Positions 3,794 through 64,000 of a DNA stretch of 64,000 nt are shown here, piece by piece. How positions within the stretch are numbered: position 1 is the stretch's first letter; each line of letters starts with the position of its first letter. Made by a program: the position numbers and the translations under genes. The stretch is from Parvularcula maris (GTDB lineage Bacteria > Pseudomonadota > Alphaproteobacteria > Caulobacterales > Parvularculaceae): positions 1 to 64,000 of the forward strand of contig NZ_JANIBC010000002.1 in assembly GCF_024505085.1 (NCBI RefSeq), in the 5' to 3' direction. Below the pieces are notes generated by a model. It was not told the DNA's origin. It worked only from the letters and a program-made list of their open reading frames with translations, and ran no database searches.

Positions 3794-6415
3794 ATGCTGC
3801 CTACCTTCGTCAATATCGGCGAGCGGACGAACGTTACCGGCTCGGCGAAGTTTCGTAAGCTGATCAAAGCGGGCGACTACGGTACCGCCGTCGACGTGGC
3901 GCGTAGCCAGGTCGAGAACGGTGCGCAGATCATCGACGTCAACATGGATGAGGGGATGCTCGACGGGGCGGAGGCCATGGGCATCTTCCTGCGCCTGATC
4001 GCCTCCGAGCCTGACATCGCCCGTGTGCCGATCATGATCGACAGCTCTAAATGGGAGGTGATCGAGGCTGGTCTTCAGCAGGTTCAGGGCAAGCCCATCG
4101 TCAACTCCATCAGCCTGAAGGAGGGCGAAGAGCAGTTCTTGCACCAAGCGAAGCTCTGCCTGCGCTACGGCGCGGCGGTGGTCGTCATGGCCTTCGACGA
4201 GGAGGGGCAGGCCGACACCGAGGACCGCAAAGTCGAGATCTGTACCCGAAGTTACGAGCTTCTCACCGGGATGGGTTTTCCGCCCGAGGACATCATCTTC
4301 GATCCCAATATCTTCGCGGTCGCAACCGGTATCGAAGAGCACGCGAACTACGGCGTGGACTTCATCGAAGCGACCCGGCGGATCAAGGAAACGCTGCCCG
4401 GCGCGAAGGTGTCGGGCGGGGTCTCCAACGTCTCCTTCTCGTTCCGCGGCAACGATGCCGTGCGCGAGGCGATGCACTCTGTCTTCCTCTACCATGCCAT
4501 CCGTGCGGGAATGGATATGGGGATCGTCAATGCGGGTCAGCTCGCCATCTATGACGAGATCCCAGAGGGCCTGCGTGAGCCGGTCGAGGACGTCATCCTC
4601 AACCGCCGGGACGACGCCACCGAGCGCCTTCTCGAAGCTGCCGAGGCCTTCAAGGGCAAGGGCTCGAAGGCCCAGGAGCAAGACCTCTCCTGGCGTGAGG
4701 GCAGCGTCGAGGACCGTCTGAGCCACGCCCTGGTCAAGGGCATCACGGAGTATATCGAAGAGGACACCGAAGAGGCGCGGCAGAAGCTCGGTCGCCCGCT
4801 TTTTGTCATCGAAGGCCCGCTCATGGACGGGATGAACGTGGTCGGCGACCTCTTCGGCTCGGGCAAGATGTTCCTGCCCCAGGTGGTGAAGTCCGCCCGC
4901 GTCATGAAGCGCGCCGTCGCCTATCTCGAACCCTTCATGGAGGAGGAGCGTCTTGCTGGCGGCAAGGAGCCCGAGGCCAAGGGCAAGGTGCTGATGGCGA
5001 CAGTCAAGGGCGATGTCCACGATATCGGAAAGAACATCGTCGGCGTCGTTCTTCAGTGTAACAACTACGAGGTCGTCGACCTCGGCGTGATGGTGCCCGC
5101 GAACGATATTTTGAACGCTGCGGAAGAGCACGGCGTGGATGTCATCGGTCTCTCCGGTCTCATCACCCCGTCCCTCGACGAGATGGTGAGCGTCGCTAAG
5201 GAGATGACGCGGCGCGGCATGAAACAGCCGCTGATGATCGGCGGCGCAACGACCTCTAAGGCGCATACGGCGGTCAAGATCGACCCGGCCTATGAGAACG
5301 GCGTGGTCTATGTCACCGACGCGAGCCGGGCCGTGGGCGTCGTCAGCGATCTCATCTCGGACGAGCGGCGGACGGACTATCTCGGCGGCCTTCGCGAGGA
5401 CTATGACAGCGTCCGCGCGAGCTTCGCCAAGCGGCAGGCGAAAGACGACAGGCTGAGCATCGAGGATGCGCGGAAGAACGCTCATGAGCTGAGCCAGCCG
5501 CTGCCGGAAGCACCTGCCAAACCGGGGCTCCATACCTTTAGGGACGTGCCGCTCTCCGAACTCGTCCCGTATATCGACTGGACGCCCTTCTTCGCGTCTT
5601 GGGACCTCCACGGACGGTACCCGCAGATCCTGGAGGACGACGTGGTGGGTGAGGCGGCGCGGTCGCTGTTCGACGACGCGCGGAAGATGCTCGAGACCAT
5701 CGTCAGCGATGCCTCACTAGCTGCTCATGCGGTCGCTGGTCTGTTTCCGGCCAACCGGGACGGCGACGACATTGTGGTCTGGACCGACGAAAGCCGGACG
5801 AAGGAGCGGGCTCGCTTCCATACGATCAGGCAGCAGATGAAACGGCGGGGGGACGCAGCCAATCTGGCCCTCTCAGACTTCATCTCCGTGGACGGAGAGG
5901 ACTATGTCGGCGGCTTCGCCGTGACGGCAGGTCACGGCGAGGACGAGCTGTCGGCTGTCTTCAATCAGGGCGGCGATAACTATCAGGGCATCATGGTCTC
6001 CGCTCTAGCCGACCGCCTCGCCGAGGCCATGGCGGAGTGGCTGCACGAGAAAGTGCGGCGGGAGCTTTGGGGCTATGAAACGGTAGACAAGGCGGAGGTC
6101 GCCGCGCTCATTGCAGAGGACTATCAGGGCATCCGACCGGCCCCCGGCTACCCGGCCCAACCCGACCATACCGAGAAAGAGACGCTCTTCGATCTTCTCG
6201 GTGCGGAGGAAGCGACCGGCATCACCCTGACCGAAAGCTACGCCATGCAGCCGGGCGCCAGTGTCTCAGGGCTCTATTTTGGGCATCCTGAAGCACACTA
6301 TTTCGGTACGGGGAAGATCGGCAGGGACCAGGTCGCCGACTATGCCGAACGCAAAGGCTGGGACATCGAGACAGCGGAGAAATGGCTGCAGCCGATCCTA
6401 GCCTACGATACCTAG
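3794..6415 (+). CDS. metH: Methionine synthase, cobalamin-dependent, lacking the homocysteine-binding domain
   Basis: An 873-residue protein covering three of the four modules of B12-dependent methionine synthase. It starts at the pterin (methyl-THF) module ([16 protein letters not shown] at residues 5-20). A cap and cobalamin-binding module follows, with DVHDIGKN and the lower-ligand His409. The C-terminal SAM-binding reactivation module contains [15 protein letters not shown] near residue 780. E. coli MetH is about 1,227 residues; the missing part is the N-terminal Zn/homocysteine domain. In many alphaproteobacteria that domain is a separate gene between metF and this one, but here metH starts directly after the metF stop. 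A partner must be encoded elsewhere. Confidence 0.95.
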
Positions 6416-55300: not shown

Positions 55301-56805
55301 CGCCGCACCACGACATCTACTCCATCGAAGACCTCGCGCAGCTCATCTACGATCTCAAGCAGATCGCGCCCAAGGCCCGCATCTGCGTCAAGCTGGTCAG
55401 CTCCGCAGGCGTCGGGACCATTGCCGCCGGTGTCGCCAAGGCGAAGGCCGACGCCATCCTCATCTCCGGGCATGTCGGCGGCACCGGCGCGAGCCCGCAG
55501 ACATCCATCAAGCACGCTGGCTCCCCCTGGGAGCTGGGTCTCGCCGAGGCGAACCAGGTGCTGACGGTGAACGGCCTGAGGTCCGCCGTGACCCTACGGA
55601 CCGATGGCGGCATCAGGACAGGCCGCGACGTGGTCATCGCCGCCATGCTGGGTGCGGAGGAGTACGGCATAGGCACGCTCTCGCTGGTGGCGATGGGCTG
55701 CCTCATGGTGCGTCAGTGCCACTCCAACACGTGCCCAGTCGGCGTCTGCACCCAGGACGAGGAACTGCGCAAGCACTTCACCGGGACGGCCGACCACGTG
55801 GTCAACCTGATGACCTTCATCGCCGAGGACGTGCGCCGGATCCTCGCCTCTTTGGGCCTCGCAAGCCTGGAGGAGGCGGTCGGACGGTCGGACCTCCTCG
55901 TCCAGACCGGGCGGGGGCACGACCTGCTCGACGATCTCGACCTCAACCCGCTGCTCGTGAGGGCCGAGGCCGGGCTATCCCCGCCGCGCTCGGAGCGGCA
56001 TGGCAGGCGCGAGGTCGAGCCGACCCTCGACGAGACCATCCTCAAAGACGCCGGTCCCGTGTGGGAGCGCCGTGAGAAGATGCAGCTCGACTATACCGTT
56101 GCCAACACTCACCGCGCCGTCGGTACACGAACGAGCAGCCAGATCGTGTCGTCCTTCGGGTCACTGCCGCAGGGTCACCTGACCCTGCGCCTCTCTGGCT
56201 CCGCCGGGCAGTCCCTGGGCGCTTTCGGTGTCGAAGGCCTCAGGATCGAGGTTCGGGGGGACGCCAACGACTATGTCGGCAAGGGCCTCTGCGGCGCGGA
56301 GATCGTGGTCAAAGGGTTCAAGGGTGAGCATACGGACGATGCCTCCGTCCTGGTCGGCAATACCTGCCTCTACGGCGCCACATCGGGCAGTCTGTTCGTG
56401 GCTGGGCGAGCAGGCGAGCGCTTCGCCGTACGCAACTCCGGCGCGACGGCTGTGGTCGAGGGGCTCGGCTCCAACGGTTGCGAGTACATGACGGGCGGCG
56501 AAGTGCTGATCCTCGGCAGCGTTGGCGACAACTTCGCAGCGGGCATGACCGGCGGCAGGGCCTATGTCTTCGACGAGGACAGACAGCTCCCTCATCTTCT
56601 GAACACGGAGCACGTTGTTGCAGTGAGCCTGGGCGAGGACGAAGCCCCCTGCCGGGAGCTTCTTCTGCGTCACTATGCGGAGACCGGCAGCGCGCTAGCC
56701 GATAAGCTTCTGGAAGACTGGGAGACGGCGAAATCATCCTTCGTTCGCGTGCTCTCCCGCCAGGAAGCTCGCCTGAACGAGCGCCGGGATGCCCCAGCGG
56801 CTTGA
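52351..56805 (+). CDS. gltB: Glutamate synthase (NADPH) large subunit
   Basis: A 1,484-residue enzyme making two glutamates from glutamine and 2-oxoglutarate. An 18-residue propeptide should be removed to expose the Ntn nucleophile Cys19 in HDACGVGMIA. The amidotransferase, central, FMN-binding synthase and beta-helix GXGXG domains follow. The 3Fe-4S cysteines are Cys1123, Cys1128 and Cys1133 in VRQCHSNTCPVGVC. FMN-domain signs include GEGGEDPSRYK and KPGEGGQLPGFKVN. The C-terminal beta-helix has GEVLILGSVGDNFAAGMTGGRAYV. Length is normal. Confidence 0.97.
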   Translation: MRPPAPFGLYDPRDEHDACGVGMIAATDGRPRREVVTRAIAALKAVWHRGAVAADGKTGDGAGLRLDIAQDFFRQHIMRSGHGENAAPILVGQVFLPRTDFAAQDKARTIVEKEVLSFGFRLYGWRQVPVDSTVIGRQANEARPQIEQVLFWDPRGRSNTELEQVLYIIRRRIERFALQERMQSFYICSLSGRDVIYKGMFLAGDIDRFYLDLKDERFESAVAIFHQRYSTNTFPEWRLAQPFRMLAHNGEINTLPGNTAWMQAHEIEMVSSAFGEHGDAIRPVIQPGASDSAALDAAFELLVRAGRSAPMAKALLIPEAWSKRGSSMPEEVKALYAYCNAVMEPWDGPAAVCAFDGRFAVAGLDRNGLRPLRYALTSDGLLTVGSESGMCPLDGKTITRRGAVPAGGLIAVDLKEQRFLDHDEARKDLATAHPYTEWLKGVTELDREIGPGPEPSLYEGIELRRRQIAAGFSREDLELILDPMVQEAKEAVGSMGDDTPLAVLSSRYRPLSHFFRQRFSQVTNPPIDPLREGRVMSLKTRFKNLGNILAEDKTQTDVFVLDSPVLTNGMMERLTSRIGAHLIDCTLSREAGGENLKEALERIRREACKAVQNGAGHLVLSDERQGPGSIPVPMILAAAGVHRSLLEAGLRSRCSFTVRSAECMDSHYMAVLVGVGATCVNPYLAFDTLAANHAAGRYPGKSLGEACLAYKTALENGLLKIISKMGASVISAYRGGCHFEILGLSRTIVSEFFPAASSRLSGLGFRGMEERAAQLHSLAWPEEDKAPRLPIGGFYRVRSGGEDHTYEARIIADLQTAVRQNDWSAYERFRDGLQEHSSIELRSLLGFRPASPLPLDEVESVNAIRQRFVTPGMSLGALSPEAHGALNVAMNRIGAKSVSGEGGEDPSRYKPLPNGDNMNSAIKQVASGRFGVTAAYLGQCREIEIKVAQGAKPGEGGQLPGFKVNAYIARLRHATEGVTLISPPPHHDIYSIEDLAQLIYDLKQIAPKARICVKLVSSAGVGTIAAGVAKAKADAILISGHVGGTGASPQTSIKHAGSPWELGLAEANQVLTVNGLRSAVTLRTDGGIRTGRDVVIAAMLGAEEYGIGTLSLVAMGCLMVRQCHSNTCPVGVCTQDEELRKHFTGTADHVVNLMTFIAEDVRRILASLGLASLEEAVGRSDLLVQTGRGHDLLDDLDLNPLLVRAEAGLSPPRSERHGRREVEPTLDETILKDAGPVWERREKMQLDYTVANTHRAVGTRTSSQIVSSFGSLPQGHLTLRLSGSAGQSLGAFGVEGLRIEVRGDANDYVGKGLCGAEIVVKGFKGEHTDDASVLVGNTCLYGATSGSLFVAGRAGERFAVRNSGATAVVEGLGSNGCEYMTGGEVLILGSVGDNFAAGMTGGRAYVFDEDRQLPHLLNTEHVVAVSLGEDEAPCRELLLRHYAETGSALADKLLEDWETAKSSFVRVLSRQEARLNERRDAPAA

Positions 56806-56887
56806 ACGAAATGAGCCATCTATATCCTGCTGTAGATCGAAACTCGCGCAGTTGAGCGAGAAAATAGCTGTTTATCTCTTGTTAGTG

Positions 56888-56916
56888 TTGCGGTGCAAAG
56901 AGGTCCATGTTAGGGT
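56888..56916 (+). promoter_or_regulatory. Candidate promoter of the ilv leader
   Basis: A -35-like TTGCGG (56888-56893) and a -10-like TAGGGT (56911-56916) are 17 bp apart, placing a start near 56923, about 40 nt before the leader ATG. The match to consensus is moderate, so confidence is low; the position fits the attenuator downstream. Confidence 0.35.
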
Positions 56917-56961
56917 CAACAGGACCGAAGGCATTTGAACCGACGCTCGCAGGCTAAGACG

Positions 56962-57048
56962 ATGAACCAGCACATCTTTCCGACCGCTGCTCCCCTAGCG
57001 CCCGTTCGCTCGGTCGTCCTTGTACTCCTTATTACCGACAGCCCCTAG
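56962..57048 (+). CDS. Leader peptide of the branched-chain amino-acid operon (ilvL-like)
   Basis: A 28-residue peptide that was not seen as a gene before because of its size. It starts with MNQHIF and has Val/Leu/Ile codons packed together near the end: VVLVLLIT at residues 18-25 (Val Val Leu Val Leu Leu Ile Thr). It ends DSP and TAG. It lies upstream of a hairpin pair and terminator and of ilvD. Ribosome stalling at these codons when Val, Leu, Ile or Thr is scarce would favour transcription of the operon, as in enterobacterial ilvL. Start ATG has only a weak upstream AGG. Confidence 0.75.
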   Translation: MNQHIFPTAAPLAPVRSVVLVLLITDSP

Positions 57049-57056
57049 GAGCGGCA

Positions 57057-57113
57057 TCGGATAAGGCTGGCAGCCATAACCGACGCAGAGCTCCCGAAAG
57101 GGAGCTTTTTTTT
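57057..57113 (+). terminator. Attenuator of the ilv operon (pause/antiterminator hairpin and terminator)
   Basis: A first imperfect stem (TCGGATAAGGCT at 57057-57068 with AGCCATAACCGA at 57072-57083) precedes a perfect terminator stem AGCTCCC/GGGAGCT (57089-57095 and 57100-57106) with a GAAA tetraloop and eight T residues (57106-57113). The leader peptide stop at 57046-57048 is just before the first stem. Upstream GCTCCCCTAG can pair with CTAGGAGC around 57045, giving further alternatives. The operon's ilvD starts 20 nt after the T-run. Confidence 0.83.
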
Positions 57114-57133
57114 CGCCTGAACCACGGAACACC

Positions 57134-58792
57134 ATGACCAAGAGAAGCGATCAGATCACGAAGGGACCAGAGCGGGCAGCCGCTCGGGCCATGCTTCGCG
57201 CCACTGGGATGAAGGACGAGGACTTCGACCGTCCCATGGTGGCGGTGATCAACACCTACTCCTCCGTCACGCCCTGCAACATGCATTTGAAAGACCTCGC
57301 CGAGCCGGTTCTGGAAGGCATTAGGGAGGCAGGCGGCTGGCCAGTGGAGTTCGGCGCGCCGGTGGTCTCCGACGGCATCACCATGGGCCACCAGGGTATG
57401 CGGGCGAGCCTCATCAGCCGGGAGGTCATTGCCGACGCCATCGAGATCGCCGTCTATGGCCATGCGCTCGATGCAGTCATCGTGCTGGTCGGGTGCGACA
57501 AGACCCTGCCCGCCGCCGCCATGGCGCTCGCGAGATGCAATGTCCCCGGACTGATCTTCTATGGCGGCACCATCGCGCCGGGTTGCCATAAGGGACGGAA
57601 CCTCTCGATCCAGGACGTCTTCGAGGCCGTCGGCTCTCACGGCCTCGGCCGCATGAACGACGAGGAGCTCGGCGCCGTCGAGCGCGCCGCCTGCCCCGGC
57701 GCAGGCGCCTGCGGGGGTCAGTTCACGGCCAACACCATGGCCATGGCGTTGGCCTTTCTGGGTCTCGCCCCGTTCGGCGCAGGAGACGTCCCCGCCGCCC
57801 ATCCAGGCAAGGCTGACGAAGCGAAGAGATGTGGGCAGATGATAGCCGAAGCTGCAAAGGGTAGCGGCGCCCGGCACTTCGTCACGGAAGCGTCGCTTCA
57901 GAACGCTGCCACCGCCGTGGTCGCCTCGGGCGGCAGCACCAACGCCGTGCTGCACCTCGCCGCGATCGCCGCCGAGACCCATGTCCCCTTCGAGATCGAG
58001 ACCTTCGACCGGCTCAGCCGCGAGGTCCCCATCATCACGGACCTCAAACCCGGCGGACGCTTTTTGGCCCAGGACCTCTTCGAGGCGGGGGGCTGCCGCC
58101 TCTTCGGCCAGCGTCTGAAGGAAGCCGGGTTTCTCGCCGATACACCGACCGTCAGTGGCAAGAGCCTTTTCGAGGAGCTTTCGTCGGCAGTCGAGACGAA
58201 GGACCAAGAGGTCGTCCGAAGCGTGAACGAGCCGGTCAAGGAGCGCGGCGGGCTTTCCATCCTCTATGGAGAAGTCGCCCCAGAGGGGGCGGTGCTCAAG
58301 ACCGCGGGCCACACCGCCACCCGCTTCGAAGGCCCCGCGCGCATCTTCGACAGCGAGGAAGAAGCCTTCGCCGCCGTCCAGTCGGGCCGGATAGAGGAGG
58401 GCGACGTGGTCGTCATCCGCTGGGAGGGTCCAAGAGGCGGCCCCGGCATGAGAGAGATGCTGCAGGTGACGGCGGCCCTCGCCGGGCAGGGGCTGGCCGG
58501 TAAGGTTGCTCTTCTCACGGACGGCAGGTTCTCCGGCGCCTCCCACGGCTTCGTCGTCGGCCACTGCGCACCGGAGGCGGCCGTAGGCGGACCGATTGCC
58601 AGGCTTCGAGAGGGTGATCGGATCAGCTTCGATGCCGAGACCCGCCGTATCGACGTGGATGCCGACCTTCGCAGCCGAGCCCCCGTCCCCCGCCCCTCCT
58701 CCGCCCCGGCGGTTCAGGGCGTCTTCGCCAAATATGCCCGTCTCGCTGGATCGGCCAGCCGCGGCGCCACCACCATGCAGGAGAACTCGTGA
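57134..58792 (+). CDS. ilvD: Dihydroxy-acid dehydratase
   Basis: A 552-residue IlvD/Edd-family Fe-S dehydratase making the 2-oxoacid precursors of valine and isoleucine. The signature [14 protein letters not shown] (Cys ligand) and [20 protein letters not shown] (second Cys ligand region) are present, along with [14 protein letters not shown] and [19 protein letters not shown]. Length is normal. It is the first structural gene behind the attenuator; its stop overlaps the ilvC start, so they are coupled. Confidence 0.97.
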
Positions 58793-59823
58793 TGACCGAA
58801 ACCTTGAGAGCCTACACCCAAGCCGACGCTACACCCGTCCTACAGGGTACACGGATCGCCGTTATCGGCTATGGCAGCCAGGGCCGTGCCCATGCCATGA
58901 ACCTGCACGACTCGGGGCTGGACGTGGTGATCGGCGCTAGGCCCGACGGCCCCTCCCATGGCAGGGCGATGGCCGATGGTTTCGAGGTCGCCTCACCGGT
59001 GGATGCGGCGAAGCAGGCACAGTTCATTGCCATGACGGCTCCCGATATGGCCCACCGAGAGATCTTCCAGGACGCCATCGCGCCGAACCTCGACGAGGGC
59101 GACACGCTGATGTTCGCCCACGGATTCTCCGTGCTCTACGGTCATGTCAGGCCTCCCAAAGGCATCGATGTCATCCTCGTCGCGCCCAAGGGGCCTGGCG
59201 ACCTCGTCCGCAAGGAGTATGAGCGGGACCGCGGCGTGCCGTGTCTCTTCGCGGTCCACCAGGACGCGACCGGCAAGGCCCATGAGAAAGCCATCGCCTA
59301 CGCCCATGGCCTGGGCGGCACGCGGGCCGCTCTGTTCGAGACGAGCTTCAAGGACGAGACGGAGACGGATCTTTTCGGCGAGCAGGCGGTTCTCTGCGGC
59401 GGCGCCACCGAGCTCGTCAAGATGGGCTACGAGACCCTGGTCGAGGCGGGCTATCCGCGAGAGCTCGCATATTACGAGTGCCTGCACGAGCTCAAGCTGA
59501 TCGTGGACCTTCTCTACGAGGGCGGCATCACCAAGATGCACGAGTTCATCTCCGAGACCGCGATCTACGGCGATCTGCGCTCGGGCCGCAGGATCATCAA
59601 CGAGGAGACCCGCGAGCGTATGCGGACGATCCTCTCGGAGATCCAATCCGGCCAGTTCGCCCGCGAGTGGGACGAAGAGAACGCCGCCGGCCGGCCGGTC
59701 TATAACCAGCGCCTGCAGGAGGACTTCGACCATTCCATCGAAGAGGTGGGCAAGATGCTCCGGGGACATATGACCTGGCTTCAAGAAGACGCTCGCACGG
59801 CGGCTATGGAGGCAGCGGAATGA
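58792..59823 (+). CDS. ilvC: Ketol-acid reductoisomerase
   Basis: A 343-residue class I KARI converting acetolactate to dihydroxy-isovalerate and acetohydroxybutyrate likewise. The Rossmann loop VIGYGSQGRAHAMNL is followed by a beta2-alphaB loop ARPDGPSHGRAM that sets cofactor preference. Catalytic residues appear in VAPKGPGDLVRKEY (Lys), TDLFGEQAVLCGG (Asp and Glu), ELKLIVDLLYEGG and SETAIYGD. The ATG at 58792 shares a base with the ilvD stop; GTG at 58789 is also possible. Its stop overlaps the start of a 42-residue ORF. Confidence 0.97.
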   Translation: MTETLRAYTQADATPVLQGTRIAVIGYGSQGRAHAMNLHDSGLDVVIGARPDGPSHGRAMADGFEVASPVDAAKQAQFIAMTAPDMAHREIFQDAIAPNLDEGDTLMFAHGFSVLYGHVRPPKGIDVILVAPKGPGDLVRKEYERDRGVPCLFAVHQDATGKAHEKAIAYAHGLGGTRAALFETSFKDETETDLFGEQAVLCGGATELVKMGYETLVEAGYPRELAYYECLHELKLIVDLLYEGGITKMHEFISETAIYGDLRSGRRIINEETRERMRTILSEIQSGQFAREWDEENAAGRPVYNQRLQEDFDHSIEEVGKMLRGHMTWLQEDARTAAMEAAE

Positions 59824-59948
59824 GCACCTCACCGGCAGCCCGAACCCCCGTCTCAAGCCAAGCCAAGGATAAGCCGAAGGCGGAGAAAGCGCAGCCCGAA
59901 CCCTCCAAGCCCAACCCCTTCGCCTTCTTCAAGGGAGCGGCGCCGTGA
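59820..59948 (+). CDS. Small protein of unknown function, coupled within the ilv operon
   Basis: A 42-residue ORF lying exactly between ilvC and ilvG. Its ATG overlaps the ilvC stop (ATGA), and its TGA overlaps the ilvG GTG start (GTGA). GGAGG is 7 nt before its ATG. The product is rich in Lys, Pro and Ala (for example KDKPKAEKAQPEP) and ends NPFAFFKGAAP. It has no membrane segment or known domain and is probably disordered. The overlaps at both ends and the strong ribosome site argue that it is translated; a role in coupling, or a regulatory subunit, is speculation. Confidence 0.72.
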   Translation: MSTSPAARTPVSSQAKDKPKAEKAQPEPSKPNPFAFFKGAAP

Positions 59949-61645
59949 CCGCTGCGGCCAAACCCTTATTGGTGGAAGAGGAGGCGGTGGCGACGAAGCC
60001 CCGAACCGGCGCGCATGTTCTTGTCGATGCCATCGCAGCGCAGGGGACGGAGCTCGTCTTTGGCTATCCCGGCGGCGCCATCATGCCGGTCTATGACGCC
60101 CTTCCCGGCTCGGCGCTCCGCCACATCCTCTGTAGGCACGAGCAGGCCTGCGCCTTCGCTGCTGCCGGATACGGACGGATGACGGGAAAGCCGGGCGTCT
60201 GTCTGGCCACGTCGGGGCCTGGGGCGACGAACCTCGTCACCGGCATCGCCGATGCCTTCATGGACTCCGTCCCCATGGTCGCGATCACTGGCCAGGTCGC
60301 TCAGCCAATCATGGGCACCGATGCCTTCCAGGAGATCGACACGTTCGGCATCACCATGCCCATCGTCAAGCACAGCTACATCGTCAGGGCCGTGAGCGAT
60401 ATACCGTCGGTGGTGGCCGAGGCCTTCCAGATCGCCGGCACGGGCAGGCCAGGTCCGGTTCTCATTGACCTTCCCAAAGACGTGCAGCAGGCGATGTGCG
60501 ACATGCCGCCCACCGTTCTGGACGCGCCCGCCCCCCTGCCGCTCGATGAGGAAGGCCTGCGCCGCGCCGAGGCCGCCGTGAGCGTGGCCGAGCGGCCCCT
60601 CTTCTACTTGGGCGGAGGGATCACCAGGGCCGGGGCTACCGAAGCCGTCAGACGCATGGTCGAGCGCAGCGGCATCCCCGCCGTCTGTACCCTGCACGGA
60701 AACGGGGTTCTGCCGACCGGGCACGAGCAGCTCTTGGGCATGGTGGGGATGCACGGTGCCCAGGCAGCAAACCACGCGGTGCAGCAGTGCGACCTTCTCA
60801 TCAATATTGGCGGGCGCTTCGACGACCGCGCCACGGGCCGCCTCGACGGTTTCGCCCCCCACGCGTCGGTGGTGCATTTCGACTGTGACCGCAGTGAGGT
60901 CTCCAAGCTGCGCCACGCCGACGTCTCCGTAGGCGGATCGCTGAAACATGCGGTCAAGAGCTTCCGGCCCGAAGCCCAAGCTATCGCTCCATGGCTCGGC
61001 GAAGTCTATGAGAAGCGGCGGGCCACACCCCACCGCTACGACGCACCCGGAGAGGGCGTCTACGCCCCGGCCCTGCTGAAAGAGCTGTCCGAGAAAGCGG
61101 GCAAGCGGTTCGTCGCCGTGCCCGATGTAGGTCAGCATCAGATGTGGACGGCGCAGCACTGCGAGTTCTCCCGGCCCGAAGCGCACCTCACCTCCGGCGG
61201 CCTCGGCTCCATGGGGTTCAGCCTGCCGACGGCCATAGGCGCACAGCTCGCCGAGCCGGACGCCGTGGTGGTGTCCATTTCCGGCGATGGCGGCATCATG
61301 ATGAACATCCAGGAGCTTGCCACCCTTCGCCGCTACGGCATCCCGCTGAAAGTCGTCGTGATCGACAATGCACGCCTCGGCATGGTCCGTCAGTGGCAGG
61401 AGCTGTTCTTCGACGGCAACTTCTCCGAGGTGGACCTCTCCGACAACCCCGACTTCGCCCGCGTGGCTGAAGCGTTCGGGATCGAAGCCTTGACGGTCTC
61501 CCAGCGTTCCGAGGTCACCCCCGGTATCGAGCGGCTCCTTGCCGCCGAGGGACCGATCCTCATGCATGTCGTCATCGACCCCGCCGAGAATGTCTGGCCG
61601 CTGGTGCCGCCCGGCCATGCCAACCACCAGATGATGGAGGGCTGA
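59945..61645 (+). CDS. ilvG: Acetolactate synthase large subunit (AHAS II/IlvG-like)
   Basis: A 566-residue ThDP enzyme. The N-terminal FGYPGGAIMPVYDAL and LCRHEQACAFAAAGYGR hold the catalytic Glu, followed by LATSGPGATNL, and the ThDP-binding GDGGIMMNIQELATLRRYGIP. The segments GMVGMHGAQAANHAVQQCDLLI and TGQVAQPIMGTDAFQE match E. coli IlvG (AHAS II) closely, so I prefer ilvG to ilvB. A 20-residue N-terminal extension precedes the conserved domain. GTG start overlaps the small ORF stop, and AAGGGAG lies 7 nt upstream. The short small-subunit gene starts 4 nt later. Confidence 0.95.
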   Translation: MTAAAKPLLVEEEAVATKPRTGAHVLVDAIAAQGTELVFGYPGGAIMPVYDALPGSALRHILCRHEQACAFAAAGYGRMTGKPGVCLATSGPGATNLVTGIADAFMDSVPMVAITGQVAQPIMGTDAFQEIDTFGITMPIVKHSYIVRAVSDIPSVVAEAFQIAGTGRPGPVLIDLPKDVQQAMCDMPPTVLDAPAPLPLDEEGLRRAEAAVSVAERPLFYLGGGITRAGATEAVRRMVERSGIPAVCTLHGNGVLPTGHEQLLGMVGMHGAQAANHAVQQCDLLINIGGRFDDRATGRLDGFAPHASVVHFDCDRSEVSKLRHADVSVGGSLKHAVKSFRPEAQAIAPWLGEVYEKRRATPHRYDAPGEGVYAPALLKELSEKAGKRFVAVPDVGQHQMWTAQHCEFSRPEAHLTSGGLGSMGFSLPTAIGAQLAEPDAVVVSISGDGGIMMNIQELATLRRYGIPLKVVVIDNARLGMVRQWQELFFDGNFSEVDLSDNPDFARVAEAFGIEALTVSQRSEVTPGIERLLAAEGPILMHVVIDPAENVWPLVPPGHANHQMMEG

Positions 61646-61649
61646 CCCC

Positions 61650-61973
61650 ATGAGCATCCGTCCGCGCGGCAATATGCGCCGCGGCACCATCGAGACGCTG
61701 ACCATCGCTTCCGACGATGTGAACGGCACGCTACGGCGCATCTGGACCGTGATCGAACAGCGCGGCTGGAACGTCCGTTCACTGCTCGTCAAGGAGGTCG
61801 AGGGCGGGGTGGAGACCCGCGTGCAGGTCTCACCCACGGGCAACCACCGCTCTATCGAGACGCTCCGCCATCAGATCGAACGCCTGATCAATGTCCGCTT
61901 CGTCCGTCTGGAACGCCGAAGCCGCGAGCAGCCGAGCCAGTGGAAGGAGATCCCCTATGGCACGGTCATCTGA
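61650..61973 (+). CDS. ilvM: Acetolactate synthase small subunit, short IlvM-like form
   Basis: A 107-residue regulatory subunit with one ACT domain (IETLTIASDDVNGTLRRIW and ETRVQVSPTGNHRSIETLRHQIERLINV). E. coli IlvM is 87 residues and IlvH about 163; here the C-terminal half of the longer IlvH type is absent. The pairing with an IlvG-like large subunit suggests an AHAS II-type complex. Valine sensitivity of the enzyme cannot be judged from this. It overlaps ilvA by 17 bp. Confidence 0.88.
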   Translation: MSIRPRGNMRRGTIETLTIASDDVNGTLRRIWTVIEQRGWNVRSLLVKEVEGGVETRVQVSPTGNHRSIETLRHQIERLINVRFVRLERRSREQPSQWKEIPYGTVI

Positions 61974-63225
61974 GCTGAAGGCGGTCGTCAGTGAGCTGCC
62001 GAACCCGTTCGGTCTGCCCGAAGAAGTCTGGCGTTCGATTCTGGAGAAGCGCGACCCGGCCTGGCGCCGCATCCTCACCCCGCCCTGCCTGCGCAGCGAG
62101 AAGCTATCCGAGCTGACGGGCTGCGATCTTCACCTCCAGCTCGAGACCATGCAGGTCACCGGGTCGTTCAAGGAGCGCGGTGCCCTTTCCAAACTTCTGT
62201 CGCTGACGGAAGAAGAGCGCGCTGCCGGTGTGGTGGCTGCCTCCGCAGGCAACCATGCCCAGGGGCTGGCGCGGCACGCCAAGTTGCTCGGCATCCACGC
62301 CGTCATCGTCATGCCGAAGCGCACCCCACTGGTGAAGATCGAGGAGACCAAGCGCTACGGCGCGGAGATCGTTCTTTACGGAGAGGGTTTTGAGGAAGCC
62401 TCGGAGGAAGCGGAGCGCCGCGTGCGGGAGGACGGCCTCACACTGGTCCATCCTTTCGACGATCCCTTTGTCTCCGCAGGCCAGGGCACCATCGCTGCCG
62501 AGATGCTCGATGCCGTTCCCGACCTGGACGTCCTTATTGTACCTATCGGCGGCGGCGGCCTCATCGCAGGTATGGCGGCAGCGGCGAAGGAGCGCCGCCC
62601 GGACATCGAAGTGATCGGTGTCCAGGCCGACCTCTATCCAGGAATGCTCAACGCGCTCGAAGGCTGGGCGCGGCCTTGCGGCGGCATGACCTTGGCGGAG
62701 GGTATCGCCGTCTGCCGTCCCGGTTCCCTGACCCGCGAAGTCGTCCGTACCCATGTGGACCGGATCATCACGGTGGACGAGCAGCACCTGGAGCGGGCTC
62801 TCTGCCTTCTTCTCAACACGCAGAAGGTTCTTGCGGAGGGCGCAGGCGCCTCGGGCCTGGCCGCTGTCTTGGCCCACCCGCAGCTCTTCGAGGGCCGGAA
62901 GGTCGGCTCGGTGGTTTGCGGAGGCAATATCGACGCGCGGCTCATCTCGGCCATCCTGATGCGGGACCTTGCGCGTCAGAAGCGTTTGGCACGGCTGCGC
63001 GTCGTTCTGATGGACGTACCCGGAGAGCTCACCCGTGTGGCCTCGGCCATCGGTGAGGCTGGGGGCAACGTCATCGACGTCTCCTACCACAAGGTCTTCA
63101 ACGATCTGCCTGCCAAGGAAACCCATCTCGACATCTCCGTCGAGGCCACAGGCCACGACCACATGAACCAGATCATCGGCGCGCTGAAGGCCGAGGGTCT
63201 GACCGCCGTTACCGCCAACTACTGA
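61957..63225 (+). CDS. ilvA: Threonine ammonia-lyase (threonine dehydratase)
   Basis: A 422-residue PLP enzyme forming 2-oxobutyrate for isoleucine. The PLP Lys is in QVTGSFKERGAL, and the phosphate-binding loop is VPIGGGGLIAGMAAA. AASAGNHAQGLA is a further signature. A C-terminal ACT-like domain, about residues 345-422 (RVVLMDVPGELTRVASAIGEAGGNVIDVSYHK), suggests single-ACT-type feedback control. The ATG at 61957 with AAGGAG upstream lies 17 nt inside the ilvM end. It is followed 18 nt later by leuA. Confidence 0.95.
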   Translation: MARSSELKAVVSELPNPFGLPEEVWRSILEKRDPAWRRILTPPCLRSEKLSELTGCDLHLQLETMQVTGSFKERGALSKLLSLTEEERAAGVVAASAGNHAQGLARHAKLLGIHAVIVMPKRTPLVKIEETKRYGAEIVLYGEGFEEASEEAERRVREDGLTLVHPFDDPFVSAGQGTIAAEMLDAVPDLDVLIVPIGGGGLIAGMAAAAKERRPDIEVIGVQADLYPGMLNALEGWARPCGGMTLAEGIAVCRPGSLTREVVRTHVDRIITVDEQHLERALCLLLNTQKVLAEGAGASGLAAVLAHPQLFEGRKVGSVVCGGNIDARLISAILMRDLARQKRLARLRVVLMDVPGELTRVASAIGEAGGNVIDVSYHKVFNDLPAKETHLDISVEATGHDHMNQIIGALKAEGLTAVTANY

Positions 63226-63243
63226 CCCCCGAGCGAGACCATC

Positions 63244-64000
63244 ATGACCTACGAGCCCCCTGCCCATGTCCGCATTTTCGACACCACACTGAGGGACGGA
63301 GAGCAGAGCCCCGGCTTCTCCATGACCATGAAGGGCAAGCTGAAGATGGCGAGGGTGCTCTCCGCCCTGAACGTCGATGTGATCGAGGCGGGGTTTGCTG
63401 CCGCCTCGCCGGGCGATTTCGAGGCGGTTCAGGCGGTGGCCTCCGAGGCCGAAGGCCCCATCGTCTGCTCCCTCGCCAGGGTCAATGAGCGGGACATCGA
63501 CCGCGCGGCGGAAGCACTGGAGCCCGCCCGGCGCAAGCGCGCCCATGTCTTCATCGGCACCAGCCCCACCCACCGGGAGCATAAGCTCCGTATGCGAAAG
63601 GGGGAGGTCCTCGACGCCATCGACCACGGGGTCAGGCATGCGCGGCAGATCTTCGGCGATGTGGAGTTCTCCGCCGAGGACGCCATGCGAACGGAGAAGA
63701 CCTTCCTCGCCGAATGCCTCAAGACGGCCGCGGAGGCAGGCGCCAAGACCCTCAACGTTCCCGACACGGTGGGCTACTTCACACCGGAGGAGACCTTCGA
63801 TGTCTTCAGCTATCTGATCGATGCGGTGGAGCCGGAGGACGACGTCATCTTCTCCACCCATTGCCACGACGACCTTGGCATGGCGGTCGCCAACAGCTTG
63901 GCCGCAGTGCGGGCGGGTGTGCGCCAGATCGAGTGCACCATCAACGGTATCGGCGAGCGGGCAGGCAACTGCGCCATGGAGGAGGCAGTGATGGCCCTTC
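63244..64000 (+). CDS. leuA: 2-isopropylmalate synthase (partial, runs off the window end)
   Basis: The first 252 residues of LeuA. IFDTTLRDGEQSPGFSMT holds the metal-binding Asp, and EAGFAAASPGDFEAV follows. HCHDDLGMAVANSLAAVRAGVRQIE and INGIGERAGNCAMEE carry the His-x-His metal ligands and the conserved Glu of the catalytic TIM barrel. It condenses acetyl-CoA with 2-oxoisovalerate as the first committed step of leucine synthesis. The C-terminal regulatory domain is outside the window. Placement after ilvA makes it part of the same operon. Confidence 0.93.
   Translation, partial: MTYEPPAHVRIFDTTLRDGEQSPGFSMTMKGKLKMARVLSALNVDVIEAGFAAASPGDFEAVQAVASEAEGPIVCSLARVNERDIDRAAEALEPARRKRAHVFIGTSPTHREHKLRMRKGEVLDAIDHGVRHARQIFGDVEFSAEDAMRTEKTFLAECLKTAAEAGAKTLNVPDTVGYFTPEETFDVFSYLIDAVEPEDDVIFSTHCHDDLGMAVANSLAAVRAGVRQIECTINGIGERAGNCAMEEAVMAL

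Follow-up and report, generated by a model that had tools for sequence, protein, structure and literature searches.

The window analysed here, that is, the whole stretch of 64,000 nucleotides, comprised positions 1-64,000 of contig C2 in the 3.19-Mb genome (G000) of Parvularcula maris. The best relatives among the dihydroxy-acid dehydratase (IlvD) matches listed were Parvularcula species with 72-73% identity, and an alphaproteobacterial assignment fits the sequence. The region of interest lies between the end of gltB at 56805 and the start of ilvD at 57134, where a leader peptide open reading frame (ORF) beginning 156 bases past the end of gltB is followed by switching hairpins and an intrinsic terminator ahead of a set of ilv and leu genes. 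The features of this leader region were the following.

56962..57048, + strand: leader peptide ORF, 28 codons plus TAG, MNQHIFPTAAPLAPVRSVVLVLLITDSP (ORF list; same ATG and run in locus L002)
57013..57036, + strand: control codons GTC GTC CTT GTA CTC CTT ATT ACC (VVLVLLIT), codons 18-25
56986..56993, + strand: segment 1, GCTGCTCC, partner of segment 2 in ribosome-free RNA (P(1:2) 0.99-1.0 in unmasked folds)
57048..57060, + strand: segment 2, GGAGCGGCATCGG, common to the 1:2 and 2:3 hairpins (folding; GGAGCG invariant in the genus)
57080..57095, + strand: segment 3, CCGACGCAGAGCTCCC, forming the antiterminator with segment 2 or, through 57087-57095, the terminator with segment 4 (folding)
57087..57113, + strand: intrinsic terminator, stem 57087-57108, GAAA loop and U tract 57106-57113 (terminator scan and folding)
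56888..56912, + strand: uncertain promoter-like pair TTGCG (56888-56892) and GTTA (56909-56912), invariant in four aligned Parvularcula-type loci

The leader ORF extended from an ATG at 56962-56964 to a TAG at 57046-57048, and an alternative in-frame TTG at 56935 would give a leader of 37 residues. Its run of codons specifies the amino acids that the operon genes synthesise. Dinucleotide shuffling of 56806-57133 produced short ORFs (8-60 aa) with at least seven consecutive isoleucine, leucine or valine (I/L/V) codons in only 6 of 20,000 trials, and the I/L/V-run short ORF was unique in the 64-kb window on both strands.

Downstream of the leader the sequence read GGAGCGGC from 57048 and CCGACGC from 57080, followed by the terminator AGAGCTCCC-GAAA-GGGAGCTTT with a nine-pair stem and eight T's, three of them counted within the stem. 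The end of the U tract was located 20 bases before ilvD. The terminator scan gave one site in 1,001 bases against 0.6 expected; the hairpin by itself is unremarkable, and it is its place and conservation that are remarkable. The 173 nt from 56961 to 57133 folded at -55.7 kcal/mol (z = -2.6), a value equalled by 3 of 200 shuffles.

Folding of the window sequence was computed with a modelled ribosome whose footprint was assumed to reach 12 bases past the first base of the A-site codon. In the absence of a ribosome the protector 1:2 hairpin formed together with the terminator. For a ribosome stalled with codon 18, 20, 22 or 24 in its A site (four tried), P(2:3) was 1.0 in RNA extending to 57098, with 57048-57052 paired to 57090-57094 and 57057-57060 paired to 57080-57083. 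A ribosome on the stop codon masked segment 2, and the terminator then formed with P 1.0. The terminator and antiterminator were mutually exclusive via their common segment 3, the control codons lay 5' of segment 2, and the TAG ended at 57048 where segment 2 starts, a placement by which a ribosome on the stop codon would mask segment 2 under the assumed footprint.

Three samples of related loci were compared: a wider sample of the best 80 of at least 542 confirmed IlvD loci (L002-L081), a family sample of thirty loci (L082-L111) from the 51 of 62 family genomes whose IlvD match had an E value of at most 1e-100, and a genus sample of ten genomes, P. maris included, all within the family sample. 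Some organisms were represented in both L002-L081 and L082-L111. All thirty family loci had a leader with at least six of eight I/L/V codons and a terminator-like hairpin before ilvD, the hairpin adjacent to ilvD having been read by eye in L107, L108 and L111 where the best-energy hairpin was a different one. Leader and terminator were present in each of the ten genus genomes, and all ten loci folded into a 2:3 hairpin and terminator, though the apical part varied in sequence. The GGAGCG of segment 2 was invariant across the genus alignment. The leader stopped just 5' of it in three genomes (G000, G050, G054), while it would be read as Gly-Ala-Ala in G051, G052 and G055 and as Arg-Glu-Arg in G053, G056, G057 and G058. 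This motif was kept irrespective of reading frame, and a role as RNA rather than as peptide is therefore indicated. Leader N-termini varied widely within the genus and the I/L/V run was shared. Conservation of sequence and predicted pairing within the genus thus covers the leader and the 2:3 and 3:4 hairpins.

Sixty-four of the 80 nearest IlvD loci had an upstream short ORF with at least six of eight I/L/V codons, a count that retains L022 although its row rests on a wrong ORF, as do the codon tallies below. Fifteen of the sixteen loci without such an ORF were Dyella-, Luteibacter-, Pinirhizobacter-, Rhodanobacter- or Tahibacter-type (in 14 of these 15, ilvD was preceded by leuA), and the other was an Acidobacteriota metagenome-assembled genome (MAG). 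These 64 relatives and P. maris formed a comparative set of 65 leaders, in all of which a terminator was assigned, by hand in six cases. Changes in segment 2 were matched in the terminator arm, with GGAGCGG/CCGCTCC in most loci, GGTGCGG/CCGCACC in L064, L072 and L075, and GGCGCGG/CCGCGCC in L070. Cognate 2:3 duplexes averaged -18.8 kcal/mol over the 65 loci against -16.7 kcal/mol for swapped ones, and 0 of 5,000 permutations reached the cognate mean in a test that ignores relatedness of the loci. The Parvularcula-type terminator arm was GAGCTCCC or AAGCTCCC, not CCCGCTCC, with some of its pairing in TCGG/CCGA. The same leader design was also found before ilvD in the gammaproteobacterial loci L062, L064, L070, L072, L075, L077 and L080, which are Lysobacter-, Luteimonas-, Arenimonas- and Aquimonas-type. 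The elements, their computed folding and, the 1:2 pairing excepted, their conservation are direct observations.

It is very probable that this region directs ribosome-mediated transcription attenuation of one ilvDC(small ORF)GMA-leuACDB operon according to how much charged leucine, valine and isoleucine tRNA is available. Transcription of the leader by RNA polymerase and its translation by a ribosome would proceed together. When branched-chain amino acids are plentiful, the ribosome would reach the TAG at 57046 and its footprint would cover segment 2, upon which segment 3 would pair with segment 4 and transcription would end near 57113. A shortage of charged tRNA for Leu, Val or Ile would make the ribosome stall in codons 18-24 and cover segment 1, and 2:3 would pair before segment 4 is made so that the polymerase continues into ilvD. 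If the leader were not translated, 1:2 would form and the terminator would again win. From this arrangement we infer a promoter for the leader, its translation, termination and a response to amino acids. A preliminary description of this DNA had noted a 28-residue leader with VVLVLLIT, competing hairpins and a textbook terminator with eight T's, and had read them as ribosome-mediated attenuation in an alphaproteobacterium. The leader was confirmed by its coordinates, the position of the run at codons 18-25 and the shuffle test, and the hairpins by the computed 1:2, 2:3 and 3:4 folds, while the terminator was recovered with its stem at 57087-57108 and T's to 57113. The control codons, the three pairings, the stop placement, the U tract and the ilv-leu operon together support that reading.

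Several results weigh against attenuation, in addition to the disregard of relatedness in the permutation test. The site scan established neither a promoter nor a ribosome-binding site; the consensus scan gave no sigma-70 site for the leader, and this stretch from 56888 onward is the weakest part of the observation. A conserved promoter was considered and rejected, the weak TTGCG/GTTA pair in four loci being all that scan and alignment gave. At equilibrium with segment 4 included, the terminator dominated the stalled states (P 0.97, 0.91, 0.86 and 1.0 for codons 18, 20, 22 and 24). The forced terminator and antiterminator folds were at -31.0 and -30.3 kcal/mol with the RNA free from 57030 or 57038 (0.7 apart) and at -29.7 and -26.3 kcal/mol with it free from 57044 (3.4 apart). 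The terminator is favoured at equilibrium even with a stalled ribosome, and 2:3 must therefore win kinetically, by timing; classical attenuators decide kinetically. The bare 2:3 duplex was weak in the window, where 142 of 200 shuffled leader tails paired with segment 3 equally well, and shuffles of the inner 2:3 equalled or beat the real fold in 3 to 136 of 200 trials across the genus (7 of 200 for P. maris). In the four Parvularcula-type loci the cognate 2:3 duplexes (-14.0) were not better than swaps (-13.8, -17.7).

Other explanations of the leader region were considered. The leader peptide or a short attenuated RNA could act in trans, besides or instead of attenuation in cis, as peTrpL and rnTrpL of the alphaproteobacterium Sinorhizobium meliloti do according to PMC7298713. 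This was judged improbable, as the leader N-termini diverge in the genus while the I/L/V run is shared, and GGAGCG is conserved at the RNA level whichever frame it falls in and even past the stop, which fits an RNA role in cis. The hairpin could instead be a plain gltB terminator, with a separate promoter for ilvD lying beyond it, an arrangement compatible with the 156-base distance from gltB to the leader and with the unestablished leader promoter. It is nonetheless very unlikely, given that the U tract follows the leader and ends so close to ilvD and that loci without gltB beside ilvD have the leader and the terminator too: gltB was directly upstream only in L002-L004 of the 80 loci and more distant in L013 and L031. 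No promoter-like site was found past the terminator, though the same scan found none for the leader either.

Searches with the Rfam 15 covariance models gave no match at gathering score in the window and no match in 56806-57233 up to E 5, and in nine related loci matched only tRNA and the SAM_alpha aptamer, neither at the leader. A T-box, riboswitch or known Rfam leader was rejected on these results for the window and nine relatives, and tRNA or ligand sensing beside a chance hydrophobic ORF, which a terminator and structured leader alone would fit, is scarcely credible with I/L/V-rich leaders in relatives at a similar distance from the terminator.

Codon choice in the 65 leaders was set against that in the ilvD match of each locus, taken over its first 1,500 bases. 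ATT made up 83% of leader isoleucine codons against 19% in ilvD, GTA 39% of valine codons against 2%, and CTT 35% of leucine codons against 5%, and leucine accounted for 54% of I/L/V codons in the leaders and 32% in ilvD. The corresponding values in 34 long ORFs of the window were 10.6% (ATT), 5.4% (GTA) and 16.1% (CTT). Leader codons avoid the preferred synonyms. The genome carried tRNA-Leu with anticodons GAG, TAG, CAG, CAA and TAA and tRNA-Val with GAC, TAC and CAC; no tRNA-Ile GAT was seen among all 39 tRNA places examined in the genome, probably because of an assembly gap. A rare isoacceptor is a poor explanation for the leader leucine codons, as CTC and CTT made up about 60% of leucine codons in the window. 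On the usual understanding, one tRNA decodes both CTT and CTC and one decodes both ATT and ATC, and isoacceptor charging alone would therefore not explain the bias. Codon bias in attenuation leaders, with its theory, is discussed in PMC1183508, which also cites work on the codons of the Salmonella leu leader.

The genes downstream of the leader were assigned as follows.

57134..58792, + strand: ilvD, dihydroxy-acid dehydratase (NCBIfam NF002068, above cut-off)
58789..59823, + strand: ilvC, ketol-acid reductoisomerase (NCBIfam NF004017, above cut-off)
59820..59948, + strand: 42-codon small ORF, a candidate gene, overlapping ilvC and ilvG by 4 bases each
59945..61645, + strand: ilvG, acetolactate synthase catalytic subunit (NCBIfam NF006524, above cut-off)
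61650..61973, + strand: ilvM-like acetolactate synthase small subunit with ACT domain (Pfam PF13710 above cut-off; NCBIfam below cut-off)
61891..63225, + strand: ilvA, threonine ammonia-lyase (NCBIfam NF005600, above cut-off)
63244..64000, + strand: leuA, 2-isopropylmalate synthase, truncated where the window ends (N-terminal part, below full-length cut-offs)
64428-65816 of contig C2: leuC, after leuA
likely start near 65813 of contig C2: leuD (named from Pfam domain and position)
66391-67440 of contig C2: leuB (named from Pfam domain and position)

The operon genes of the window from ilvD to leuA overlapped or sat at most 20 bases apart, and a terminator scan of 57134-64000 gave three sites against 2.9 expected, with nothing indicating an internal stop. 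The genes ilvD through leuB would form a single transcript. The ilv-leu operon had been described preliminarily as complete, which does not hold within the window, where leuA is cut by the edge, and does hold in the genome, where leuC, leuD and leuB follow at C2 64428-67440. The listed ilvA start is probably too far upstream, the family match starting at residue 60. The IlvG protein had a single match within its own genome. Counterparts of the small ORF, ending in F-A-x-[FY]-[MK]-G-[SCA]-A-P, were found in five of the ten genus genomes (G000, G051, G052, G054 and G055) and none was seen in the other five; the small ORF had no NCBIfam or Pfam match.

LeuA usually has a C-terminal leucine-feedback domain. 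The protein encoded by the complete leuA (G000:C2:63244-64428) is 394 aa long; its Pfam domains are HMGL-like and HCS_D2, and none follows the latter. The approximate LeuA length was also 394 in L002-L004, while Brevundimonas-type and several Hyphomonadaceae-type loci had about 391-410 aa (L017 had 347), and it was about 515-540 aa in Marinicaulis-, Robiginitomaculum- and most Dyella-type loci, with 397 in two Luteibacter. A strict link between a short LeuA and the leader was rejected, as Marinicaulis- and Robiginitomaculum-type loci have leaders plus a LeuA of 517-538 aa.

A helix enclosing the terminator was predicted in some relatives, at about 5888-5945 in L023 and also in L046, L008 and L070. 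Its 3' arm lies beyond the U tract, and it can therefore form only in readthrough RNA. The arms vary between lineages yet match each other. Below are the loci with at least eight enclosing pairs and the fractions of shuffled and of swapped 3' flanks that reached that number.

BrevA: 14 of 15 loci; shuffled 0.62; swapped 0.45
Marinicaulis-type: 8 of 10 loci; shuffled 0.49; swapped 0.31
Lysobacter-type: 5 of 7 loci; shuffled 0.52; swapped 0.36
Hyphomonadaceae-type: 4 of 8 loci; shuffled 0.34; swapped 0.37
BrevB: 1 of 8 loci; shuffled 0.25; swapped 0.30
Robiginitomaculum-type: 1 of 5 loci; shuffled 0.23; swapped 0.09
Others: 1 of 8 loci; shuffled 0.34; swapped 0.23

Overall, the duplex energy was -14.4 for cognate flanks and -11.4 for swaps (0 of 5,000 permutations), and most single loci were unremarkable against shuffles. 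With these mixed controls the predicted outer helix of the relatives remains a lead. An outer helix in the group of the window was rejected, with 0 enclosing pairs in all four Parvularcula-type loci. Locus L023, from a Hyphomonadaceae MAG, also carried a SAM_alpha aptamer at 5458-5535 on the minus strand (37.3 bits against a gathering score of 36), which lies some hundreds of bases upstream of the ilvD-leader terminator and on the opposite strand.

Enterobacterial ilv and leu attenuators combine 1:2, 2:3 and 3:4 switching with a run of control codons and biased synonymous codons, all of which were matched here. Unlike those systems, a single Parvularcula leader spans ilv and leu genes and no Rfam leader family matches it. 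Ribosome-mediated ilv attenuation is already known in alphaproteobacteria, and the kind of control is not new. The ilvBN leader of Caulobacter crescentus has tandem Ile and Val codons (PMC4117421, citing Tarleton et al. 1994), and the two systems have in common an alphaproteobacterial ilv operon, a branched-chain-codon leader, a Rho-independent terminator and the same logic (PMC4117421), whereas the Parvularcula leader precedes ilvD and the ilv-leu set and its codons are mostly Leu and Val. PMC1273637 mentions an alphaproteobacterial ilvB leader peptide as described earlier by Vitreschak et al. 2004, and the present leader is of the same kind as the attenuators which that work, as cited there, reported for alphaproteobacteria. 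The Staphylococcus aureus ilvDBNCleuABCDilvA operon similarly has a Leu-rich leader and terminator before an ilvD-first ilv-leu operon, and differs in being a Firmicute operon that is also under CodY and has a different gene order (PMC5794164). The literature search returned no title on an alphaproteobacterial ilvD leader among the matches listed, most subscription papers being outside its reach, and a search naming Parvularcula found no papers.

A broader picture can be proposed tentatively, and taken as a whole it is possible rather than likely. One undescribed RNA family, with segment 2 GGNGCGG and a matching terminator arm, may precede ilvD-first operons in Parvularcula-, Marinicaulis-, Hyphomonadaceae- and Brevundimonas-type alphaproteobacteria and Lysobacter/Arenimonas-type gammaproteobacteria. 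A second helix would surround the terminator in several lineages and be missing in the genus of the window, and with a LeuA lacking the feedback domain there, the pathway might be controlled by leucine mainly through the leader. The interest lies in the spread of this apparently uncatalogued leader family, the codon bias, the outer stem, the LeuA without a feedback domain and the small ORF between ilvC and ilvG. The synonymous bias toward CTT and ATT poses a minor puzzle for theory on how sensitive attenuators are, and the 65 comparable leaders provide a set for studying codon choice together with switch pairing. The comparative evidence suggests that the ilv-leu set in an alphaproteobacterial lineage sits behind one translation-coupled switch.
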